From NCBI GenBank assembly GCA_015233285.1, contig JADFYA010000071.1, positions 1-12,224 on the forward strand: a DNA stretch of 12,224 bases, given 5' to 3'. The notes under the pieces are model-generated. The model worked only from the letters and a program-made list of their open reading frames with translations, had not been told where the DNA came from and did no database searches. The stretch comes from Deltaproteobacteria bacterium (GTDB taxonomy: Bacteria > Desulfobacterota > JADFXK01). Below are positions 1-12,224 of this stretch, in pieces. The position numbers were made by a program, and so were the translations under genes. Within the stretch, counting starts at the first letter, position 1. The number at the start of each line of letters is the position of its first letter.

Positions 1-2110
1 ATTTTTTGTTTTAGCAATTCTTCAATCAGGGAAGAGAAGGACCTGGCCGCGATCTTGGGGCTGAAGGTTTGTTCCACGACCCATTCACCCATAGACCTAA
101 GGCCGGCCAGTAGTTCTGCGTCTATGATCAGCCGGCCGGCGGCGAGAACATATTCTTCCACGGTCGCGACGTGGGCAAAGGAGAGAGTTGGCCGGCCCTG
201 GTAATGAAGGAACGAAGCGGCGCCCCATTCCCATTTCACGGCAGCCTCAGGCAATTGAGTTTGATCATAAAAGTCGAATGGCTGCAAGGCCAGCAGGGCG
301 CCTCCCTGAGCCAGGTACTCACCCTGAGCCGTGGTGCTGGCGGAAGAAGGAGAAAACGGATGAAGATACAGGTCAATGACATGGGCATAAAGTGGGGTGT
401 TTGATGATCTTGGGAAGTAGAATTTGTCCTGCATCCCCAATTCTGCAATCTTCTGCTTCAGGCCGGCATCTATGTCGTCATTGCCTCCGGTACCGCAGGC
501 CAGGTAGACAGCCTGAGGGTATTCGGTCAATATTTCAGCCACAGCCCGAAGATATTCTTCATCGTCTATTTCAGACAATTGATCGATACTCCCTAATATA
601 AACGCATCTTCCGGATAGCTCTGCCGTAACTCGGCCACCAATTTCGGGTCGGCCTTGGAAGAATCAGGTATCACCACCATGGGCGGACGGAAAAAGTAGT
701 ACTCGTATCCGGAAAGTATTCCCCTGGTCCCGACCCGGTGCGTTATCCGATAGTCGATTCCGGCGACATCATAGACCAGGTCGGCTTCAGCCCAGTAAAT
801 CTGCAGGGATGAAGTCCGAGTCGATAACAAGAACGCGTCTTGCTCTCTGCGGCAGGATGAGATCAAGATATCTATCTCATCAGCGGTCACCTTTTCTCTA
901 AGCTTCAGGCACTTATTGAAGTGGCTGTAATACAGGCCGGTATCGCGGTCGTCAATGAGGTCATGGATGCTGACATAGCTAACCCCCAGGTCGGCTATTT
1001 TCTTGACGCACTCCCTATCTGATATAGATTTTTCAATATATTCCAAATCATAGACGTAATACTCATACTCCGGGCGGCCTTGGGCCACCAGTCCCACCAG
1101 CAGAGGATATAGAAGGTCAAATTGAGAATTATTGACGATCCGATCACAAACAAAGCCTATTTTCCATCGGTTTCGGCCCACAAAGGTATCTTTGCCGGGC
1201 GGGCGCAGATCATGCTCGGCCACCAGGTGGTCTGAGATATACCTCCCCAGCGGTTGATCCAGGTCCTTGGTTAAGGCGGCCCATCCGGTTTGAGTCTGTG
1301 TTAGGTTGCCATAGATGTGGGATAAAGGAAAATGCAAATAAAAAGCTAATTCCGTTTGTCCTTTTTGCACGGCCTGGTGGAAGAGGCCGAGCAGGCAAGA
1401 ATATATTTTCAGCCATTCCGGCTTGGCTCCGTAGCTGTGCCACAGGCTGAAAAGTACCCATATGATATTGGATTTTTGGACCTGAAGCGGTTTTTCCAAG
1501 AATTCTGAGGAAAAGACGTATTGAATGAGATTCTCTATCAGTTCTTCCAGGTTGGAGAAAAGGACATCCAGCACATTTTTTAATAGGGCCGGGGTATTCC
1601 TGATACCGGATTCTACTGTGAAGTCTAGATCGACTATTCGGGTCAAGTATTCCGTCCTGGCCTGGTGCCGGTCTTTTCCGTTAAAAAAGTTGAGAATGAG
1701 TTCGACGTTCGCCAAGATTGCTTTGAAATAGTCAGTGGATGAGGCATAGATTTTCTGGATTTCACTGAATAGCATTTCACTCTGAGGCGAAGATGTCAGA
1801 GTCACGCCCGACCGGGCGATCAGTTCGACAAAGGCCAGGCAATTAAGATTATACTGGGCACAAAGAAGTGATCCCGGATGATCCCGAAAATGTCGGCATA
1901 AGCCATCTTGTATTTCGGATTCCGATGAGGGAAGTAAGTCATCTCCATGGCATAAAAGGCGGCAATGGCGTCGCTCGCCGCCTCGTTGTCCATCGGTTCA
2001 TGGAAGACATTGGCGACGTCGACCAGGTATCTTTCGATATGGCCTAGTTTCAACATGTCCAGCCAGGTTGACAGTCTAGGATTCATTTTGCAGCTCTCTT
2101 TCAATGTCAT
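1..2110 (-). pseudogene. SPINDLY/HMW1C-like glycosyltransferase (GT41-type), frameshifted, C-terminus beyond window
   Basis: Two minus-strand reading frames together make one protein of about 700 residues. The first runs from ATG 2110 (or the better-placed ATG 2086, preceded by GAGAG) to about 1865. The second stays open from about 1862 to the window edge. Frame one reads through IIRDHF and frame two continues with CAQYNLNCLAF, so one base appears to be missing from a short T run (plus-strand A's at 1862-1864). The first part is all-helical in character. The later part looks like a GT-B sugar-nucleotide transferase: LQIYWAEADLVYDVAGIDYR (about 750-806) resembles the acceptor/UDP-binding stretch of O-GlcNAc-transferase-like enzymes, IDLYLHPFSPSSASTT (about 330-380) resembles their nucleotide-binding loop, and the end (VEEYVLAAGRL and SFSSLIEELL) matches the SPINDLY C-terminal helices. 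Family members glycosylate proteins such as adhesins in the cytoplasm. It may be a decayed gene or a sequencing error. The substrate is unknown. Confidence 0.68.
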
Positions 2111-2198
2111 TTTTTGGTGACAGGCAGATTTCTTAAGGCCCGGTTTCGTGGTCTGGGCCCACGGCTAATTGGCTTGCTCCTTCCCAGGGGGGGACTGC

Positions 2199-2924
2199 TT
2201 AGGCAGTCAGCACCTGGATATTGAATACAGGGACATGTTGCCGGCTCAACAAAATGGCATGGTTTTTATAAGGCTCTGAGTTGTGTTTGAGCAGGGGAAT
2301 AAAATGGGGAAACCGGCGCAGAAACAACTCAATGGTTCGAACCGAAGTATTAATCTCGCCTTCGATGTAAGTCTGGAGCGGGGCTAAGTAGGATTTGACT
2401 TGAAAACGAAACATCGCCTGCCGGGCGGTTTGTTTTTTCCAGGCCGGGCTGCCGTGGAATTGCTCCAGCTCGATGACAAAGGCTACCTGCTGCAAGTCGA
2501 TCATGAGTTCCTGGTCAGACCAAATAATCTTTTTGTCTTTAACCAGGCAAGGTTTTTTTAGATAGGGATAGTAAACCGCTTCGTTATCAAACCAGATTTT
2601 TCTGAGTTCGTCTTCATTGGCCACCGGCCGCTTTTTGTCTGGGCCGGCATAAAGAATTTTTTGCCCGACCATCCGTTTGGCTTCTTTGGGATCACGAATA
2701 ACTCTTGTTATTTCTTTTGATTGCAGAGTGACGTGTTCTATGATTTTTTTATTTAGGAGAACAGACAACAGGCCGATGTCTGGGAGGGCGCCTTCGACGA
2801 TCTCCCCCGTGACCAGGAAAAAACGTACCAGATTAAGGGGGATGACGCCCGGACTCCCGTCCAACGGCGGACGATTTTCGGAGCTGGATTCCATGTGATC
2901 GGGATAATCGTTAAAATCAACCAT
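2199..2924 (-). CDS. Unrecognised 241-residue protein
   Basis: I do not recognise this family. The frame is also open from a TTG at 2945, but the ATG at 2924 (MVDFNDYPDH) is a more natural start, although neither has a convincing ribosome binding site. The protein is soluble in character, with no signal peptide or membrane segment. It has a charged, proline-containing N-terminus, then a beta-rich part (VRFFLVTGEIVEGALP), a basic middle (KEAKRMVGQKILYAGPDKKR), an acidic/hydrophobic stretch (DLQQVAFVIELEQFHG) and a helical, aromatic C-terminal third (FLRRFPHFIPLL). It lies 88 nt upstream of the glycosyltransferase-like gene on the same strand, so the two may be co-transcribed. That gives a weak hint of a role in the same surface- or protein-modification process. 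Coding reality is supported by length, strand agreement and lack of a better overlapping frame. Function is unknown. Confidence 0.65.
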   Translation of the reverse strand: MVDFNDYPDHMESSSENRPPLDGSPGVIPLNLVRFFLVTGEIVEGALPDIGLLSVLLNKKIIEHVTLQSKEITRVIRDPKEAKRMVGQKILYAGPDKKRPVANEDELRKIWFDNEAVYYPYLKKPCLVKDKKIIWSDQELMIDLQQVAFVIELEQFHGSPAWKKQTARQAMFRFQVKSYLAPLQTYIEGEINTSVRTIELFLRRFPHFIPLLKHNSEPYKNHAILLSRQHVPVFNIQVLTA

Positions 2925-2945
2925 GAACCCAACTAACCGGCCCAA

Positions 2946-3517
2946 TTGGCCATTTTTCAGTTGTTAACTGCTGGATACGGGTGTTTTAAGACGCATCAAA
3001 GAGTCGCTGGCCAAAGGAAACTAGACGCCGACCCTTCAAATGAGTCTATCATCCGTGCTGCAGACCTTCATTCCCAGACGGTCTCATGAGAATTCAATTT
3101 CTTTATACTTCTTTAGACTGAAAAGAAAGCAAAGTCAATGAAAAGCACAGGGCAAATGCTTCGGTTTTGTCACAGGACATCCGAGGACTAGACTTCATGA
3201 GCCGGTCCCAAACCAGTTTGAAATTTGTTTGCTTTTGATTGGCGTCCGAGGGGCGGGATTTGTCGGGGTGAGAGATGGATAGCTTAGACTTGTTATCTGA
3301 TTATGGCCGGGTAGGCCGGGTTGGAGTGCTCCCGGCCGTGGTAGAGAATTATCTTGAATTCGAAAGGATAAATATAGGCACAGGCAATTGACCACACAGG
3401 GCAAAGGTGTTCGTTGTCCCACCGGTTTGCAGGGGCCACAGGAGTATTTAATCTTCTTCTCCGATGAGTTTACCACGGCCACCGGTTCTTCCCGGAAGGG
3501 ATCGTGGGGGCCCCCTT
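2946..3517. other. Intergenic region of about 570 bp with no convincing gene
   Basis: The stretch separates the BcrA-type gene from the unknown gene. It contains GC-rich short repeats of GGCCGGG type (about 3305-3340), a perfect 10-bp GGGGGCCCCC palindrome (3503-3512) just after the upstream stop codon, and an AT-rich part (about 3090-3140). A minus-strand frame at 3195-3482 is open for 95 codons, but it is rich in Pro, Ser and Cys with no recognisable domain, so I treat it as chance. No classical hairpin plus U-tract terminator was found. Confidence 0.5.
3110..3138 (-). promoter_or_regulatory. Possible sigma-70 promoter for the unknown protein and glycosyltransferase pair
   Basis: On the minus strand, TTGACT (3138-3133) is followed after 17 nt by TAAAGA (3115-3110) in an AT-rich patch. 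The -35 is close to consensus. The -10 matches only three of six positions. It would leave a leader of about 180 nt before ATG 2924. Position and composition are suitable, but the match is weak. Confidence 0.25.
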
Positions 3518-4384
3518 TTATTTGCCGGATTTTTTGAACAGAGCTTCAGCGAACAGGGCCGCGCCCAGGGCACCGGCAATCTGCGTATCCCTGGTCGGTT
3601 TGAGCGCCTTGATCCCCAGTTCCTTCTCGATTCGGGAAACTACGCCGATGTTCTTGGCGATACCTCCGGTAATGGCGAGTTCTTTCTCAACGCCGATTCT
3701 TTTTAGCAAAGAGACGACCCGATGGGCCATGGCCGAGCTGTACGCGGCCAGAACCTTCTCTTTGGGCCAGCCGGAGCGCAGAAGGCCGGAAGCCTCAGAT
3801 TTGGCGAACACGACGCAGGTGGAGGAAACCGGCTGGGGCTCCTCAGCCACCTGGAGGGATAACTCGCCCATGTCGTTAATGGATACGTTCAACAGGTCGG
3901 CAAATACTTCCATTCCGCGACCGGTCCCGGCCGCGCATTTGTCGTTCATCAAGAAATTGGTCACCTTGCCCTTTTCGTCGCAATGGATGGCCTTACAATC
4001 CTGTCCGCCCATGTCCAGAACCGTGCGAACGCTGGGACCATGCATGAAGTTGGCCCCCAGAGCATGGCAGGCGATTTCGGTGATGGCCCGTTGCCCAAAG
4101 GGGACATTAACCCGGCCGTAACCCGTTCCCACGGTGTACTGCAGGTCTGTGTAGGTCACCCCTGTTTCTTCCATGGCCATGTTCATGGCGTTCATGGCGC
4201 TGTTGGGACTGTCGGAACCGGTTCTGGTATTGCCGTAGGCATAGAGTTGACCGTCGACCATGATCACGGCCTGGGAGCTGACTGAGCCGACATCCACGCC
4301 GCCCGTGATGAGCTTACCGGCTTTCCAGTCAAGGTCTGGATTGGTCCAGCGGGATTCCTTCCACCTCCAGAATTCTTCAGCCAT
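3518..4384 (-). CDS. bcrA: BcrA/BzdQ-type ATPase subunit of class I benzoyl-CoA reductase-like enzyme
   Basis: 288 residues of the ASKHA-fold BcrAD/BadFG ATPase family. Such subunits hydrolyse ATP in the cytoplasm to push electrons from a bridging [4Fe-4S] cluster to a low-potential aromatic-ring reductase. Visible motifs are GGVDVGS (about 28-34, phosphate 1), DMGGQD (124-129, phosphate 2), NDKCAAGTG (C150), STCVVFAKSE (C190) and TGGIAKN (239-245). The two cysteines are the expected cluster ligands shared with the partner subunit. GGQD together with the N-terminal extension (EEFWRWKESRW) points to the BcrA/BzdQ side of the pair rather than to a simple 2-hydroxyacyl-CoA dehydratase activator. 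The ATG is preceded by AAGGAGAG at a 7-nt distance. It lies 64 nt after the BcrD-type gene and is probably the last gene of that operon. BcrB/BcrC catalytic partners are not seen, so the true substrate (benzoyl-CoA, a polycyclic aryl-CoA or another acyl-CoA) is open. Confidence 0.85.
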   Translation of the reverse strand: MAEEFWRWKESRWTNPDLDWKAGKLITGGVDVGSVSSQAVIMVDGQLYAYGNTRTGSDSPNSAMNAMNMAMEETGVTYTDLQYTVGTGYGRVNVPFGQRAITEIACHALGANFMHGPSVRTVLDMGGQDCKAIHCDEKGKVTNFLMNDKCAAGTGRGMEVFADLLNVSINDMGELSLQVAEEPQPVSSTCVVFAKSEASGLLRSGWPKEKVLAAYSSAMAHRVVSLLKRIGVEKELAITGGIAKNIGVVSRIEKELGIKALKPTRDTQIAGALGAALFAEALFKKSGK

Positions 4385-4448: not shown

Positions 4449-5213
4449 TTATTGCGCGGCGACCAAAGCGGCGCCGAAGGCTCCGACAATATCCGGATCT
4501 TCGGGAACCAGGATGTCGGTTTCCAGCATGTTCTTCAGGCTGGTGTAGAAGCCGATATTCCTGGCCAAACCGCCAATCAGCATGACTGGAGTTTCCAGGC
4601 CGATCCGCCGGACCAGGGACGTGATCCGGTCGGAAACGGCATTGTGGATGGCCTTGGCCATGTCGGGCTTGGCCGTTTTGGCGTGAACCAGCGTGACCAA
4701 CTCGCTCTCGGCGAATACGGCGCACTGGGCATTCATATTGACCATTTTGGTGGATTGGAGCGACAGGGGGCCAAGTTCTTCGAGTTTGACTTCCAGGGCG
4801 CGGGCCATGGCCTCGATGAAAGCTCCGGCGCCCGCGGCGCATTTTTCGTTAATGGCGAAGTCGGCCACCTTGCCGTCGGCCTTGATTTTAATCGCCCGGC
4901 CTTCTTCCGCTCCGACATCGATAACCGTCCGGATGGCCGGATTTAGGGCCACAGCGCCTTTGGCCGCCGCGCTCACTTCGGTGATCTTGGCCTGGGCATA
5001 GGGCACTTCATCCCGGCCGGCTCCGGTCGCCACGATTTTTGAAATATCTGAAGCCTTGATCCCCGCGGCCTTTAGGGCTTGTTGCCAGACTGTTTCGGTG
5101 GCGGGTTGAATATCGTATCCGGCGTCACCCTTGGCTTGGCCGATGATCCGGCCGTCTTTCACCACAACGGCCTTGACGGTTTTCGATCCGGCATCTATTC
5201 CTGCCGTAATCAC
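4449..5213 (-). CDS. bcrD: BcrD/BzdP-type ATPase subunit of class I benzoyl-CoA reductase-like enzyme
   Basis: About 254 residues, from the same BcrAD/BadFG ATPase family and the expected heterodimer partner of the next gene. Motifs are AGIDAGS (4-10), DVGAEE (99-104), NEKCAAGAG followed by AFIEAMARALE (C125), NAQCAVFAESE (C164) and GGLARN (214-219). GAEE in place of GGQD together with AFIEAMARALE is typical of the BcrD-type subunit and argues against a stand-alone dehydratase activator. I chose the GTG at 5213 because AGGGAGGA lies 4-5 nt upstream and the protein then begins directly at the first beta strand (ITAGIDAG). ATG 5228 and TTG 5234 are in frame but have poor ribosome binding sites. 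It is the middle gene of a probable three-gene operon. The family role is ATP-driven electron activation. The specific reductase partner is not visible. Confidence 0.85.
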   Translation of the reverse strand: MITAGIDAGSKTVKAVVVKDGRIIGQAKGDAGYDIQPATETVWQQALKAAGIKASDISKIVATGAGRDEVPYAQAKITEVSAAAKGAVALNPAIRTVIDVGAEEGRAIKIKADGKVADFAINEKCAAGAGAFIEAMARALEVKLEELGPLSLQSTKMVNMNAQCAVFAESELVTLVHAKTAKPDMAKAIHNAVSDRITSLVRRIGLETPVMLIGGLARNIGFYTSLKNMLETDILVPEDPDIVGAFGAALVAAQ

Positions 5214-5296
5214 AATGTCCTCCCTCATGATCAAAGGATGCGTTCCATTTCAATAGCATTTGATCTGTTAGGTTTCCATGAAGGCGAATATCCCGT

Positions 5297-6597: not shown

Positions 6598-7434
6598 TTA
6601 TTTTTCCTTGTTCTTTTTGACTATGATTCTTTTTTCTTCAGGAATCGGAGGAGGAACAGGCCCGCCGGAAATTTTCTGGACCGACCCAAAGCGAGGGGGG
6701 CAGGCTTCAAAGCAAGTTCCGCATTTTATGCACTTGTCCTGGTCGATAACATGGATCCGGTTTTTCCCGCCGACAATCGCCTCGACCGGGCATTTCCTAA
6801 GGCAAATCATACAGGCCTGGCACTTATCCGGATCAATATGGTAGGAGACCACGTCACGAAATAGACTGTCTATCTCTTCAGTGGTGAAAAGCTTGTCATA
6901 CTCCTCCAGATCATAAAGACGCGACGCCAGCTTCTCCTTTTTGACCACCTTAATATATGGGACTAACTTGATAATTTCTGCCAGTCCGGACTTCAATTCG
7001 CCTAGGTCTAGTCCTTCTCCCTGGCCCAGCGGCCCCAGCTTATTCACCCTATTGCCAAACCCATTCATAATTTCGGCAAAAAGGATTCCTTCACCGGCGG
7101 ACATGAATTCGATCTTCAGCCTATCCGGGTTCAGCCCCAGGTAGGCCAGTATCTTTCTGCATAGAAGGACCATGTTTAAGGCATGGTAATTTCCATGAGT
7201 AATATAATTACATTCATTTAAACGGCAACCACCAATAATCACGCCGTCGGCTCCATTAGAAAAAGCCCGGAGGACAAATTCCAGGTCGATTCTACCGGAA
7301 CACATGACGCGAATAAGCCTGACATCCGTTCTATATTGTAGTCTGGAAACTCCAGCCAAGTCAGCCGCTCCGTATGCTCACCAATGGCACATAAAGCCTA
7401 TGATTCTCGGCTTAAATGCAAGTCCCGCACTCAT
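6598..7434 (-). CDS. mvhD: Selenocysteine-containing MvhD-ferredoxin fusion (BamF-like)
   Basis: A 278-residue protein if the TGA at 7380-7378 is read as selenocysteine (residue 19). The ATG at 7434 has AGAGGTGA 6 nt upstream and starts MSAGLAFKPRIIGFMCHW. The TGA follows, and the frame continues AYGAADLAGVSRLQY. Cysteine is usual at the TGA position in the MvhD C-x-W-C-x-Y-x-x-A-D motif. Other MvhD [2Fe-2S] residues are in MCSGRID and GCRLNECNY. The C-terminal part (about residues 190-278) adds two [4Fe-4S] ferredoxin motifs, CQACMICLRKCP and CIKCGTCFEACPPRFGSV, and a NuoF-like tail (SGGPVPPPIP). MvhD passes electrons between an oxidoreductase and HdrA. In Bam clusters the equivalent BamF is reported as a selenoprotein in Geobacter. 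It follows the HdrA-like gene by 51 nt. Calling the start at 7359 (TTG) would lose the metal-binding N-terminus. Confidence 0.88.
7343..7380 (-). promoter_or_regulatory. UGA codon and candidate bacterial SECIS hairpin in the MvhD-like mRNA
   Basis: After the in-frame UGA (7380-7378) there are 27 nt to the loop of a CUGGA-GUU-UCCAG hairpin (7355-7343): five perfect base pairs and a triloop beginning with G. This agrees with the general bacterial SECIS pattern of a short upper stem, a G in the first loop positions and about 16-37 nt between UGA and loop. The stem is short, so the call rests mainly on the Sec context. Confidence 0.55.
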
Positions 7435-7485: not shown

Positions 7486-10400
7486 CTACGCATCTCCAAC
7501 CGCCGCATCCATTGGTTCCAGGATCTCGTTTGCAGGAAATGCCGCATCAATTTGGCTGAATAGCTCTTCATCGGTAAAGTGCTTTAGTGAAATGGCCCCG
7601 GTCGGACACTTGGCGTTGCAGAGACCATCCCCTTTACAGAGGATAGGATTGACTACAGCCTTTTTGCCCTGTTTTGTCTCACGAAACTCTATGGCGCGAT
7701 ACGTACAGGCGGAGATACATTCTCCACACCCCATACACTTACTCTCTTGCACCTCACAAACAGAGCCGGAGGCGACGACCGTATCGTGTGACAGAAGGGT
7801 TAAGACCCGGCCGGCCGCTCCGTAAGCCTGGTTAATCGTTTCCGGCATAAGCTTTGGGTAGTGGGCCAGTCCACAAAGATAAACGCCGTCTGCGGCAAAC
7901 TCAACAGGTTTTAATTTGGCATGGGCTTCTTTGAAGAAGCCGTCCGGGCTCAAAGTCACCTTGAATAATCCGGCGACTTCCTTAGTGGCGGCAGAGGGAA
8001 TAACCGCGGCGGCCAAAGCAACCAGATCGGCGTCTATTTGAAGCTGATTCCCTAAAATATAATCCGTCACGGTAACCCTTAGAACTGGTCGACCATCCTC
8101 TTCAACGGCTTCCACCAGAGGTTTATCTTCGGGCTCATAGCGAATGAATTTTACATCGTTACTTGATGCTTCCCGGTAATAATCTTCTTTAAACCCGTAT
8201 GTTCTTATATCCCGAAAGAGAATGTAGATATCCATATTGGGGTTTATCTCTCTCAGTTTCAAGGCGTTCTTTACGGACTCGCTGCAACATATCCGGCTGC
8301 AGTAATTTCTGTCTTCATTTCTGCAGCCGACACACTGGATCATGACTAGGCTCCCGGAGTTAATCAGCCGTTCATCTCCTTTGGCGATTCGCTCCTCCAG
8401 CTCCAGGTGGGTCAAAACCCGATCATCTTCTCCGTAAAGATATTCGGTGGGTTTATATACGTCGGCACCGATGGCGATGAGGGCTGCGCCGTGTTTTATC
8501 TCATTGATCCCTCTTTCAGATTTTACCTTGGTTACGAAATTTCCCACATAACCGGTCGCCTCTAAGATGGTCGCGTCGGTATAGACATGGATCAAGGGGT
8601 CCTGATAAACCTGGCGGATGATGTCACTCAGATATGCTTGAACATCCAGCCCTTCCAGAGTGTAATGAATCTTTCGGGCTATCCCCCCCAGGTCGGTAGC
8701 CTTCTCCACCAGATGAACCTCATGTCCCTGGCGGGCTATGCTTAGGGCGCTGGTCATGCCGGCCAGGCCGCCTCCGACCACTAAGGCCATCGGGTTGACG
8801 GGCAGATCAAATTCCTGTAACGGCTCCAAATGGCAGGCCCGGGCCACAGACATCCTGATTATATCCTGTGCCTTCTGGGTGGCTTCTTCCTTTTCTTTGG
8901 AGTGGACCCAGGAGTTATGCTCCCTGATATTAGCCATTTCACAGAAATATTGATTAATTCCCGCCTCCCGCAGGGTGTCGCGGAATAACGGCTCCAGGGT
9001 CCGGGGCGAGCAGGCCGCGATAACCACTCGATTGAGCCCTTTTTCCCTTGTGATGTCGGTTATTTGTTTGGCGGAATTAGTCGCACATGAAAATAGTTGT
9101 TCCTGAGCGTAGACGACATTAGGTAAGGTTAAAGCATATTCAACTGTGTCCGGAACATTGACTATCCTGCCGATATTGGCCCCACAATGACAGACGAAGA
9201 CGCCGATCCTCGGCTTCTCTTGGGAAACATCCCTTTCCAGCGGATAGATTCTTTCTTTGGTCAGCTTCCCCCGCCGGAAGTCAAGGAGTTCACCGCACTG
9301 GGCCCCGGCCCCGCTGGCGCTAAAAACCGATTCGGGAATATCTATGGGACCCTGGAATCCTCCGCTGACAAAGATCCCCCGCCGGTTGGTCTCCATGGGA
9401 TTGACGGGATTGATCTTACAAAAATCATGATAATTTAGTTCTATTCCATACTTAGCCGACAGCTCCCGATAACCCGCCGGAGGATTCAATCCGACGGATA
9501 AGACGACCATATCGAATTCTTCCTCTTTTACTCCTTCATCGGGTGTAGCATATCGGATGGTGACATTCTTGGTTTCCGGGTTCTCTTTTTCTATTGAGGC
9601 GTAGCTTCTGATAAATCTGGTCCCGGGAAGTTTCGCCGTTCGTTCGTAGTACCGCTCAAAGTCCTTGCCATAGGACCGAACATCGTTATGGAATATGGTG
9701 CACTCGGCCCCTGCGTCATGCTCTTTGGTCAAAATCACCTGTTTCTGGGTATAGGTGCAGCATACAGCTGAACAATAGCTGTTTTCATCCGGCGTAACCC
9801 GTCTGGAACCGACGCATTGAATCCAGGCGACTTTATGGGGATGCTTCTTGTCGGAGGCGCGCAGTATCTCACCCTCGTATGGCCCGGTGGCGCACATCAG
9901 CCGTTCGTAGTCCATACTGGTCACCACGTTCTGAAACTTCCCGTAGCGATATTCCGCCCTGACCTTAGGATCAAACGGCTCAAATCCAGGAGAGAGAATG
10001 ATCGCCCCGACTTTTACTTCTTCCTTTTCGGGCGTTTGACTTAAGTCTATGGCCTTATTTTTGCATACTGCTTCGCAAATACGACATTTTTTGTCTTTAA
10101 GGTAAAGACAGCTTTCGTCGATATAAGCGACCAGGGGAATGGCTTGGGCAAAATATATGTGTACGGCTTTATTCTTCGATATTTCCTGATTAAATTGATC
10201 AGGGCATTTCACCGGACAGTATTCCACGCAGGTAGTACACCCCGTGCATCTGCTCTCGATAATGTATCTGGGCTTTTTAATCAGCGTTACTTTGAAATTT
10301 CCTGCTTCCCCGACCACACTGTCAACTTCAGTGTAGGTCAGGATCTCTATGTTGGGATGCCGGCCGACCTCGACCAGTTTAGGTGCGAGAATTCACATAG

Positions 10401-10611
10401 AGCAGTCATTGGTCGGGAAAGTCTTGTCGAGCTGGGCCATGTGGCCCCCGATACTCGGCGCTTTGTCAACCAGATAAACCTTGAAACCTGCATTGGCCAG
10501 ATCAAGAGAGGCCTGGATACCGCTGATCCCCCCGCCGACAACCATAACATCTCCAAAATTAGTGTCTGCGAGACTATTGAGAAGCTGTCCTTTAACCGAT
10601 TCTTTTTCCAC
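7486..10611 (-). CDS. hdrA: Duplicated HdrA-like flavoprotein, selenocysteine-containing (BamE-like)
   Basis: A 1041-residue protein if the TGA at 10395-10393 encodes selenocysteine (residue 73). GTG 10611 is the only in-frame start after the upstream stop; TGAGGA lies about 9 nt before it. The first unit has a FAD Rossmann motif GGGISG (26-31), [18 protein letters not shown] (65-81; cysteine is usual at U73) and ferredoxin-like cysteines [12 protein letters not shown] (122-133) and CRICEAVC (176-183). The second unit starts at IGVFVCHCG (469) with another FAD motif, GGGLAG (613-618). Each unit carries a QCVG-x-R...YCS-x-x-CC block. Two C-terminal [4Fe-4S] motifs follow (about 959-1005). HdrA is the electron-bifurcating flavin hub in heterodisulfide reductases. 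BamE is the equivalent in class II benzoyl-CoA reductase. The gene lies 33 nt after the HdrD-like gene. The true partner set and electron carriers are inferred. Confidence 0.9.
10360..10395 (-). promoter_or_regulatory. UGA codon and candidate bacterial SECIS hairpin in the HdrA-like mRNA
   Basis: After UGA (10395-10393) come 15 nt and then the hairpin CUGGUC-GAGGUC-GGCCGG (10377-10360). It has six base pairs including two U-G pairs. A further G-C pair can close the loop to AGGU, so the loop holds the GGU core seen in the E. coli fdhF SECIS. The UGA-to-loop distance of 21-22 nt is within the range known for bacterial SECIS elements. Confidence 0.65.
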
Positions 10612-10644: not shown

Positions 10645-11796
10645 CTAAATCACTTCTGCGATAATTTCGGTGATGTCTTTAACTTCCAGGGTTTCGACAA
10701 CATTCAGAGTTAACCGACTGTCTTCAAAGTTGGCAATGCAATAGGGGCAGGATGTACTGAGAACCTCAGCCCCGACCCCGATAGCCTGTTCTAATCTCAG
10801 GTCGGAGAATCTCTCCCCCTTTGGTGTTTCCATCCAAATCCGGCCTCCGCCCCCGCCGCAACAGAGACTATCCACCCGCGCATCAGGCATCTCCATCAAT
10901 TCTAAACCTGGTATCTTTTTTAAGACGGCACGAGGCTCGTCATAGATGCCATTATGCCGGCCCAGGTAGCATGGGTCGTGATAAGCCACTTTTTTTCCGT
11001 ACTCTTTGGTGATCTGAAGCCGTCCTTCATTGATAAGCTGTGATAAATATTGGGAAATATGGATCACCTCAAAGTTCACCATAAATTGGGGATACTCGTT
11101 TTTGAAGGTATGGTAGCAATGAGGCGAGGACACGAGGATTTTCTTCACCCCGTTGTCAATAAAGTTTTTGATGTTTTCCCTGGCCAGGCGTTTGAATAAT
11201 TCCTCATCCCCGGTTTTGCGGATGCTCTCTCCACAGCAATTCTCCTTCTCGCCCAGTATCCCGAAATCTACACCCGCCGAGTTGAGGATCTTGGCCGTGG
11301 CTTTAGCTACCTTCTTTAATCTTGGGTCATAGCTAAGGTAGCAACCGGGGAAATATAGAATGTCCATTCCCTCGGTGAATGTATTGACAGCCAGACCTTC
11401 CGCCCACTTGGCCCTATTTTGTCGCTCTTCACTAAAGGGGTTGCCTTCGCCGACGAGGCTTCCGCTGATGGTGCGGATAGGACGGACAGATTTGGGAAAA
11501 ACGCCATATTCGGTGGCGATCCGGCGTAAGGCGACTCCGGATTCGATCTGTCTGACGTCCCTGGGGCACTTCTGAGGGCATCTGCCGCAGGTGGTACAAC
11601 GCCAGATATCTTCACTTTCTATGTCCGTCAAACCGAACGTAGCCTCTCGGACTATCTTGCGCATACTAAAGCTTCTGACCCTGTTCCAGGGGCAAACAGT
11701 ATCGCATAATCCGCACTGGAAGCATAATTTGAAGGCGTCTCCACCGTTCGCTTTAATGACCTCGATGATCTCTTTGTAGGGGGCTACAGTCTCCAC
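10645..11796 (-). CDS. HdrD-type (HdrC-HdrB fused) iron-sulfur protein, BamD-like
   Basis: 383 residues. The N-terminal HdrC-like part has two [4Fe-4S] motifs, CFQCGLCDTVCP (C25, C28, C31, C35) and CTTCGRCPQKCP (C67, C70, C73, C77). Two CCG domains follow. The first has C152, ENCCGE (C187-C188) and SSPHCYHT (C227), and lacks the last cysteine of C-x-x-C. The second is complete: DPCYLGR (C276), LCCGGGGGR (C312-C313) and CPYC (C350, C353), with the spacing expected for an unusual CCG-type cluster. There are no membrane segments, so the protein is cytoplasmic. In HdrB/HdrD the complete CCG domain holds the non-cubane cluster that handles disulfide or thiol-like chemistry or two-electron transfer. 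BamD is the class II benzoyl-CoA reductase version. The start is GTG 11796, with AGAGGA about 12 nt upstream, which is longer than ideal. It lies 35 nt after the BamC-like gene. Whether it serves Bam or another reductase is not settled by this window. Confidence 0.88.
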   Translation of the reverse strand: METVAPYKEIIEVIKANGGDAFKLCFQCGLCDTVCPWNRVRSFSMRKIVREATFGLTDIESEDIWRCTTCGRCPQKCPRDVRQIESGVALRRIATEYGVFPKSVRPIRTISGSLVGEGNPFSEERQNRAKWAEGLAVNTFTEGMDILYFPGCYLSYDPRLKKVAKATAKILNSAGVDFGILGEKENCCGESIRKTGDEELFKRLARENIKNFIDNGVKKILVSSPHCYHTFKNEYPQFMVNFEVIHISQYLSQLINEGRLQITKEYGKKVAYHDPCYLGRHNGIYDEPRAVLKKIPGLELMEMPDARVDSLCCGGGGGRIWMETPKGERFSDLRLEQAIGVGAEVLSTSCPYCIANFEDSRLTLNVVETLEVKDITEIIAEVI

Positions 11797-11831: not shown

Positions 11832-12224
11832 TTAGTCCTTTTTCGACATGGCCATTCGGGCAACGGTATCCATTAGTTCCTGCAATCCATATTTGCCGGC
11901 CAAAGAATCCAGTCCGGTCTCCAGATCACCCAGCTTCACGTCCTCTTCAACTTCCTCTTCTCTTTCTTCGTAAGTCAGGGCTTTAGTTATGCACCACTGA
12001 ACACACAAAGGCTCTGGTTGGGCCGGATCGTCTTCACACATATCGCATTTTAGAGGAAGTTTGGAATCGGGTTCTTTAAACACATCCCTGGATGGGCAGG
12101 AAGCCCGGCAGAAGCCACACTCTTCATATTCTTTCCCGTCGATCACGTATTTGTCTCGGCCCATGCATTCGGCTGCAGCATACTCACCCGCGTATACCGG
12201 AAGATATACGTCTCTTAGTGGTTC
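11832..12224 (-). CDS. Multi-[4Fe-4S] ferredoxin-like subunit (BamC-like), N-terminus beyond window
   Basis: The frame is open to the window edge, giving 130 residues of the C-terminal part. The ATG at 12164 is internal, because homologous-looking sequence (VYLPVYAGEYAAAEC) continues upstream. Cysteine motifs are C20 (numbered from the edge), CGFCRASCP and KCDMCEDDPAQPEPLCVQWC, the latter with the usual KCDxC...CVxxC pattern of DmsB/HycB-like ferredoxins. An acidic linker (EEREEEVEEDVKLGD) and a helical tail follow. Such subunits wire electrons to a tungsten or molybdenum catalytic subunit. In Bam clusters BamC does this for the tungstoenzyme BamB, which would lie just upstream, outside the window. 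Gene order (this gene, then HdrD-, HdrA- and MvhD-like) supports the BamC assignment, but other aldehyde:ferredoxin-oxidoreductase clusters share this layout. Confidence 0.75.
   Translation of the reverse strand, partial: EPLRDVYLPVYAGEYAAAECMGRDKYVIDGKEYEECGFCRASCPSRDVFKEPDSKLPLKCDMCEDDPAQPEPLCVQWCITKALTYEEREEEVEEDVKLGDLETGLDSLAGKYGLQELMDTVARMAMSKKD

Follow-up and report, generated by a model that had tools for sequence, protein, structure and literature searches.

Selenoprotein forms of HdrA and FrhD have been known since at least 2006, when HdrA (16) and FrhD (19) were presented among 25 bacterial selenoprotein families together with linked operons (PMC1794560). Selenocysteine (Sec) is described in HdrA, HdrL, HdrD and MvhD of Desulfobacterium autotrophicum (PMC2702500) and in HdrA and VhuD of methanogens (PMC2933860, PMC11097638), and the incomplete hdrA genes of methanogens such as Methanocaldococcus have been explained by Sec codons (PMC12054007). 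A CxxU motif is given for both the HdrA and the MvhD/FrhD families (PMC13188914), and the [2Fe-2S] cluster of an MvhD homologue is placed near the bifurcating FAD of HdrA (PMC12350162). Sec-BamE of Desulfococcus multivorans has been known since 2016; a UGA upstream of a SECIS is reported in its hdrA, mvhD and BamE (dmul_C24500/10) genes (PMC5109826). Since Sec-HdrA, Sec-MvhD and Sec-BamE are all in print, this kind of selenoprotein is already known. A limited literature search returned no statement of Sec in both BamE and BamF of one complex.

Here we analysed a 12,224-nt stretch of DNA from a Deltaproteobacteria bacterium, the whole of which we call the window, with an HdrA-like gene that is interrupted by one TGA (Table 1). 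We are highly confident that this UGA (codon 73) is decoded as Sec by SelB and tRNA-Sec, directed by a stem-loop 15 nt downstream, and that the next gene, of the BamF/MvhD type, carries a second Sec. This reading is based on an in-frame UGA that occurs once and coincides with a Cys site, at which 81 loci (the window and the best 80 of 440 relatives) have only UGA or Cys, on the RNA-level constraint on the stem-loop, on the Sec machinery (selA apart) in a near relative, and on the gene order bamC-D-E-F.

Table 1. Features of the window discussed in the text; codon counts refer to the window plus the best 80 of 440 relatives.
Feature	Position	Strand	Remarks
HdrA-like / BamE-like selenoprotein gene (predicted)	7486..10611	-	1041 aa with U73; three separate matches to HdrA chain 5odc_A
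UGA codon 73, read as selenocysteine (CSMU = CxxU)	10393..10395	-	71 TGA / 10 Cys / 0 other
Bacterial SECIS-like stem-loop CUGGUCG-AGGU-CGGCCGG	10360..10377	-	starts 15 nt after UGA73
mvhD/frhD-like gene (BamF-like), C-terminal 4Fe-4S motifs	6598..7434	-	278 aa with U19; FlpD PF02662, 154.9 bits
Second UGA, mvhD codon 19 (CHWU = CxxU)	7378..7380	-	76 TGA / 5 Cys
Small hairpin CUGGA-GUU-UCCAG after mvhD UGA, weaker SECIS candidate	7343..7355	-	codons +8..+12 conserved
HdrD/HdrBC-like gene (BamD-like)	10645..11796	-	contains Fer4 and two CCG regions; in-frame TGA absent
BamC-like ferredoxin gene, cut by window end	11832..12224	-	75% identity to G011 BamC-like protein

The HdrA-like frame and its internal TGA

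From a GTG at 10611 on the minus strand, the frame extends over 1042 codons, and its only stops are the TGA at codon 73 (10395..10393) and the TAG at codon 1042. By base composition, a random frame would contain about 52 stops, compared with the one internal stop seen. The initial annotation had described a 1041-codon HdrA-like frame with this single interruption, and both its coordinates and its codon number were correct. GC3 was 0.556 on the 5' side of the TGA and 0.554 on the 3' side.

The encoded protein has the features of the HdrA family, i.e. an FAD domain with a PTNDCSxC segment, a CHCG-type domain and a C-terminal ferredoxin domain, arranged as FAD module, N-terminal-type domain (CHCG motif, residues ~465-620), second FAD module and ferredoxin domain. 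The Sec site is in the first FAD module only. The NCBIfam cut-offs for methanogen HdrA were not reached by the window protein (918.9 vs 1100 bits for HdrA2), and we therefore consider it an HdrA relative, not an equivalog. The best solved HdrA chain, 5odc_A, aligned with query residues 22-377 at chain positions 146-497, and because no gap lies between the start of the alignment and the site, residue 73 corresponds to Cys197 of 5odc_A. The proposal that the TGA stands at an HdrA cysteine position, with similarity continuing on both sides, is thus borne out by the 5odc_A alignment, which spans the site, and by a Cys codon in 10 of the 81 loci (the window and the best 80 of 440 relatives).

The TGA is a stop in table 11, and, as had been predicted for ordinary annotation, an ORF listing splits hdrA and leaves a 943-aa ORF from GTG 10317. 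Such a split would be correct if the TGA were a real stop in a gene broken by a nonsense mutation or a sequencing error. However, the TGA also occurs at this site in two relatives (G001 and G002) and in 71 of the 81 loci. The nearest relative among the genomes examined is G001, which matches the MAG Deltaproteobacteria nDJH8bin5 (L068) and is 97% identical to the window over 5,725 bases of the operon. Codon 73 is TGA in the window and in the G001 locus L043. The 72 codons upstream of it differ by one synonymous and one non-synonymous codon, and the 969 codons downstream by 62 synonymous and 19 non-synonymous codons, which argues that the frame past the TGA is under protein-level selection. We consider the probability of a real stop negligible; the gene split by standard ORF listing is very probably intact.

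The 81 loci were the window and the best 80 of 440 relatives from a contig scan with six peptide patterns, none of which covers the Sec site. The hdrA codon at the site was TGA in 71 (among them loci of Desulfonema magnum and Pelotomaculum, which are cultured relatives), TGC in nine and TGT in one, which answers the suggested check by alignment with HdrA proteins that have Sec or Cys here, and residues 40-140, which span the TGA, were 78-99% identical. The residues after the site were CIESPK in all 10 Cys loci and U-I-L-[A/S/N]-P-K in the 71 others. In a quick tree of the 81 loci and two Cys outgroups, with the site masked, the 10 Cys loci formed one clade (support 100). The loci carry record names from several phyla, although these are titles of MAG records and single names may be wrong. 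Divergent HdrA paralogues of the relatives had TGA as well as Cys codons at the site.

The stem-loop and the selenocysteine machinery

Bacterial SECIS elements are stem-loops located just 3' of the UGA, with a small apical loop that carries a G in one of its first two places. The hairpin with a GGU-containing loop that had been reported 15 nt past the TGA was found as described, with CUGGUCG and CGGCCGG as stem and AGGU as loop. A search for a bacterial SECIS had been suggested as a check; our own hairpin scan (best hairpin per locus) recovered a conserved stem-loop in all 71 TGA loci (among the window and the best 80 of 440 relatives), with a stem of 6-8 bp and a 4-nt loop whose second nucleotide is G. 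The apical loop was located at nt 26 from the U of the UGA in 71 of 71, and its sequence was AGGU in 70 and AGAU in one. No Rfam family scored over threshold in the window.

Synonymous identity at hdrA codons +6 to +11 was 1.0, 1.0, 1.0, 0.94, 1.0 and 0.94 among the 71 TGA loci, compared with a mean of 0.537 and a highest value of 0.88 outside codons 0-14 (tested range -15 to +59). The hairpin of the hdrA TGA loci exceeds chance. With synonymous recoding by the gene's own codons as the null, the fold energy of nt 19-39 had a mean z of -4.01 (p<=0.05 in 68/71 TGA loci) vs -0.6 in the Cys loci (0/10), and that of nt 16-42 a mean z of -3.70 (66/71) vs -1.06 (3/10). For the window's own hairpin, p was 0.01 with nt 16-42 and 0.245 with nt 10-51. 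This value varies with the stretch folded because an alternative that pairs upstream is approximately equal in energy (-10.5 vs -10.2 kcal/mol), and folding of the whole SECIS region of the window hdrA returned an alternative structure.

Covariation was read from 30 of the 71 TGA rows, chosen to include variants, of which 29 were distinct; related rows are not independent. In these rows, 90.5% of cells pair. Pair 25-30 changed from G-C to C-G in two of the 29 and pair 19-36 from C-G to A-U in one, both compensatory; the latter pair was lost in one further row. Pair 23-32 was U-A in seven, and a tentative outermost pair, 18-37, failed in 21. We conclude from these patterns of conservation that the stem-loop is under constraint at the RNA level.

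The presence of GTG 10317 as a possible downstream start raises the alternative of two polypeptides, one of 72 residues and one of 943 residues that begins at the restart. This would separate the glycine-rich FAD-binding motif (residues ~24-33, on the 5' side of the TGA) from the rest of its domain, and it conflicts with the high identity of residues 40-140 across the TGA in the 81 loci, with the 10 Cys loci, which read straight through, and with the hairpin, which marks the TGA loci. Two separate products are therefore very improbable, and Sec insertion is preferred.

The Sec machinery of the window organism is predicted from that of its 97%-identical relative G001, in which we found a tRNA-Sec with anticodon tca (ARAGORN), SelB (384.5 bits) and SelD (331.3 bits), the selD gene having an in-frame TGA of its own. 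The three same-genus MAGs G001, G002 and G003 are 79, 67 and 62% complete. SelB was over the cut-off in two of them (G001, G003), SelD in two (G001, G002), and the Rfam tRNA-Sec family in all three. At the same cut-off, the Rfam family also matched 37 of 39 relatives and 5 of 14 control genomes; the ARAGORN calls are better evidence because of these matches. selA was not found in these three incomplete MAGs (62-79%) by TIGR00474 or PF03841, and it was present in 34 of 36 other relatives (PF03841). Of the selA, selB, selC and selD genes that had been named as a check, the near relative thus provides tRNA-Sec, selB and selD; selA, which was not found in the three incomplete same-genus MAGs, is the one suggested check that gave no support among those that were run.

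We also noted the following. In-frame TGA codons occur in selD of both G001 (L054) and G002 (L055), and SelD of these genomes is for this reason probably a selenoprotein too. In L057 (G001, 443-2487) and L060 (G003, 482-1651), a divergent tRNA-Sec (tca, 58.4 bits) immediately precedes a SelB-like gene, and this pair adjoins hdr-type genes. The SelB-like protein of L057 is 30% identical to the other SelB of G001, and the G003 copy is incomplete (cut short); G001 has a further tRNA-Sec, scoring 74.4 bits, and a further SelB on other contigs. Two further genes score as tRNA-Sec by Rfam and have a Cys anticodon (gca), in L151 (G031, 1354-3383, 58.8 bits), where a SelB homologue follows immediately, and in L152 (G019, 3249-3341, 54.6 bits), where no SelB match was obtained. 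They resemble the recoding of Cys codons to Sec that was reportedly described by Mukai et al. in 2016.

The second TGA and the operon

The gene directly after hdrA, of the MvhD type, carries a TGA that was absent from the initial annotation. Its context is FMCHWU, and the site aligned to a Cys in 5odc_D. Among the 81 loci (the window and the best 80 of 440 relatives), the codon was TGA in 76 and Cys in five; in L089, the mvhD included in this count flanks hdrA on the opposite side. Synonymous identity of mvhD codons +8 to +12 was 0.81-1.0. The energy of the mvhD hairpin (nt 22-42) was not in excess of the recoding null (mean z -1.11; p<=0.05 in 6/75 TGA loci, L100 of the 76 having been dropped as its DNA ends early), z was as low or lower in the five Cys loci (-1.44), and wider stretches gave mean z values of 0.7 and -0.03.

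The TGA itself could suggest that this organism translates UGA routinely, as Trp, Gly or Cys, and we found no further support for this. Each of the two genes has one internal TGA, which in both falls at a CxxU site with Cys in relatives; all 38 Cys codons of the window hdrA are TGC or TGT; in G001, a TGA that appears to be a genuine stop terminates the mvhD frame; and tRNA-Sec and SelB are present in G001. An ordinary sense codon is therefore extremely unlikely, and we retain Sec at both sites.

The order of genes in the window is bamC-like, hdrD-like, hdrA(U) and mvhD(U), with bamB outside. In G002 and G011, an aldehyde-oxidoreductase (AOR)-family gene precedes the operon. Against Geobacter BamB (4z3w_A), the BamB-like protein of G011 scored 1215 bits (next AOR in the PDB: 227) and a 502-aa piece of that of G002 scored 875 bits (next: 107); the BamC-like protein of G001 scored 228.5 bits against 4z3w_E. 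BamB- and BamC-like genes were both present in 49 of 50 related loci with at least 3.5 kb of upstream DNA. Judged by homology, the neighbours identify bamCDEF of a putative class II benzoyl-CoA-reductase-type operon. In the downstream neighbourhood of bamF in the window, there was no BamGHI (NuoEFG-like) gene, and a GNAT gene was found there instead; the bam cluster of G. metallireducens includes an N-acetyltransferase gene, bamK (PMC1924859), to which the GNAT gene may correspond. In G011, mvhD is followed by a 2Fe-2S thioredoxin-like gene and then a Nuo51-like gene.

Other features of this region were recorded separately. The window has two adjacent BcrA/D-type ATPase (activase) genes (3518-4384 and 4449-5234, minus strand), of which the first was over the BzdQ equivalog cut-off (424.5 vs 380.2 bits); activases of class I type are unexpected in the vicinity of a class II cluster. 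A class I benzoyl-CoA reductase to which they might belong was looked for in the three same-genus genomes and rejected (best BzdO 79.1 vs a cut-off of 448.6 bits). A malic enzyme gene of ~2 kb in G001 (L043, 7093-9208) is missing at the same place in the window (3391-3505). At the end of the G001 contig C516 (L044, 763-872), 53-62 nt of the bamC/bamD junction are repeated in inverted orientation, probably as an assembly artefact.

In the proposed mechanism, SelB and tRNA-Sec would insert Sec at UGA73 under direction of the stem-loop. From what is known of the families, electrons would pass from MvhD/BamF to HdrA/BamE, the flavin of HdrA/BamE would bifurcate them, and the low-potential branch would reach BamB; the potential of benzoyl-CoA is given as -622 mV (PMC12054007). 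The Sec would then lie in the module of HdrA to which the bifurcating FAD binds, with Sec-MvhD as its partner, on the route to BamB. We hypothesize that a selenolate at the HdrA CxxU site, close to the FAD or a cluster, would adjust the potential or the reactivity there.

Sec may be real while the BamB-like tungsten enzyme acts on a substrate other than benzoyl-CoA. Paralogous BamB sets do co-occur, e.g. two bamB-D sets in D. multivorans (PMC5109826), no complete bamB was observed for the window species, and the gene after bamF is not bamG. However, for the BamB- and BamC-like proteins encoded by close relatives, the Geobacter benzoyl-CoA reductase is a far better match than any other AOR in the PDB, and we consider another substrate rather unlikely; this alternative bears on the function and not on the Sec, and its odds overlap with those of our preferred reading.

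All 71 hdrA-TGA loci also had mvhD-TGA, as did 5 of the 10 Cys-hdrA loci (window and best 80 of 440 relatives). We therefore propose, tentatively, that paired Sec in BamE and BamF could be ancient in class II benzoyl-CoA-reductase-type complexes and actively maintained there, as a requirement for a bifurcation branch of extreme potential. This is favoured because the UGA and a near-invariant hairpin are common to records named from several phyla, because Sec-HdrA never occurred without Sec-MvhD in the 81-locus set, and because the single Cys clade has altered adjacent residues too (CIESPK vs UILxPK). Its odds are lowered by two more divergent HdrA loci outside this set, L026 and L028, which combine an hdrA TGA with an mvhD Cys codon. 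Pairing is looser among such divergent paralogues, and L029 shows the reverse combination. The natural Sec/Cys panel (71 vs 10), with its matched changes beside the site, provides a test set for the role of selenium in flavin-based bifurcation.

Comparison with known systems

The case presented here is well supported and has two Sec sites in adjacent genes, and it ties Sec-HdrA to an operon of a type associated with anaerobic ring reduction. As in the published selenoprotein HdrA of methanogens and Deltaproteobacteria (PMC1794560, PMC2702500, PMC2933860, PMC11097638, PMC13188914), the predicted Sec is located in a CxxU motif of HdrA, and as in the published hdrA-frhD operons, hdrA adjoins an FrhD/MvhD gene with a predicted Sec. 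In contrast to published selenoprotein HdrA, the window protein has 1041 aa with an N-terminal-type domain after the first FAD module, its gene has linked genes of the bamB/C/D type instead of the hydrogenase genes frhG/frhA, and it has a bacterial in-frame SECIS.

With Geobacter metallireducens BamBCDEFGHI (BamBC: 4z3w), the order AOR-ferredoxin-HdrD-HdrA-MvhD is shared by the relatives, and BamB and BamC are orthologous. In Table 3 of PMC1794560, the selenoproteins given for G. metallireducens include FrhD but not HdrA, and we infer from this table that its BamE is presumably the Cys form, unlike the BamE-like protein of the window with its predicted Sec. Likened by its description (PMC5109826), BamE of D. 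multivorans is similar to the window protein in being HdrA-like, in belonging to a class II benzoyl-CoA reductase cluster and in having a UGA for Sec; the window differs from it in that its BamF/MvhD-type gene carries a UGA too.
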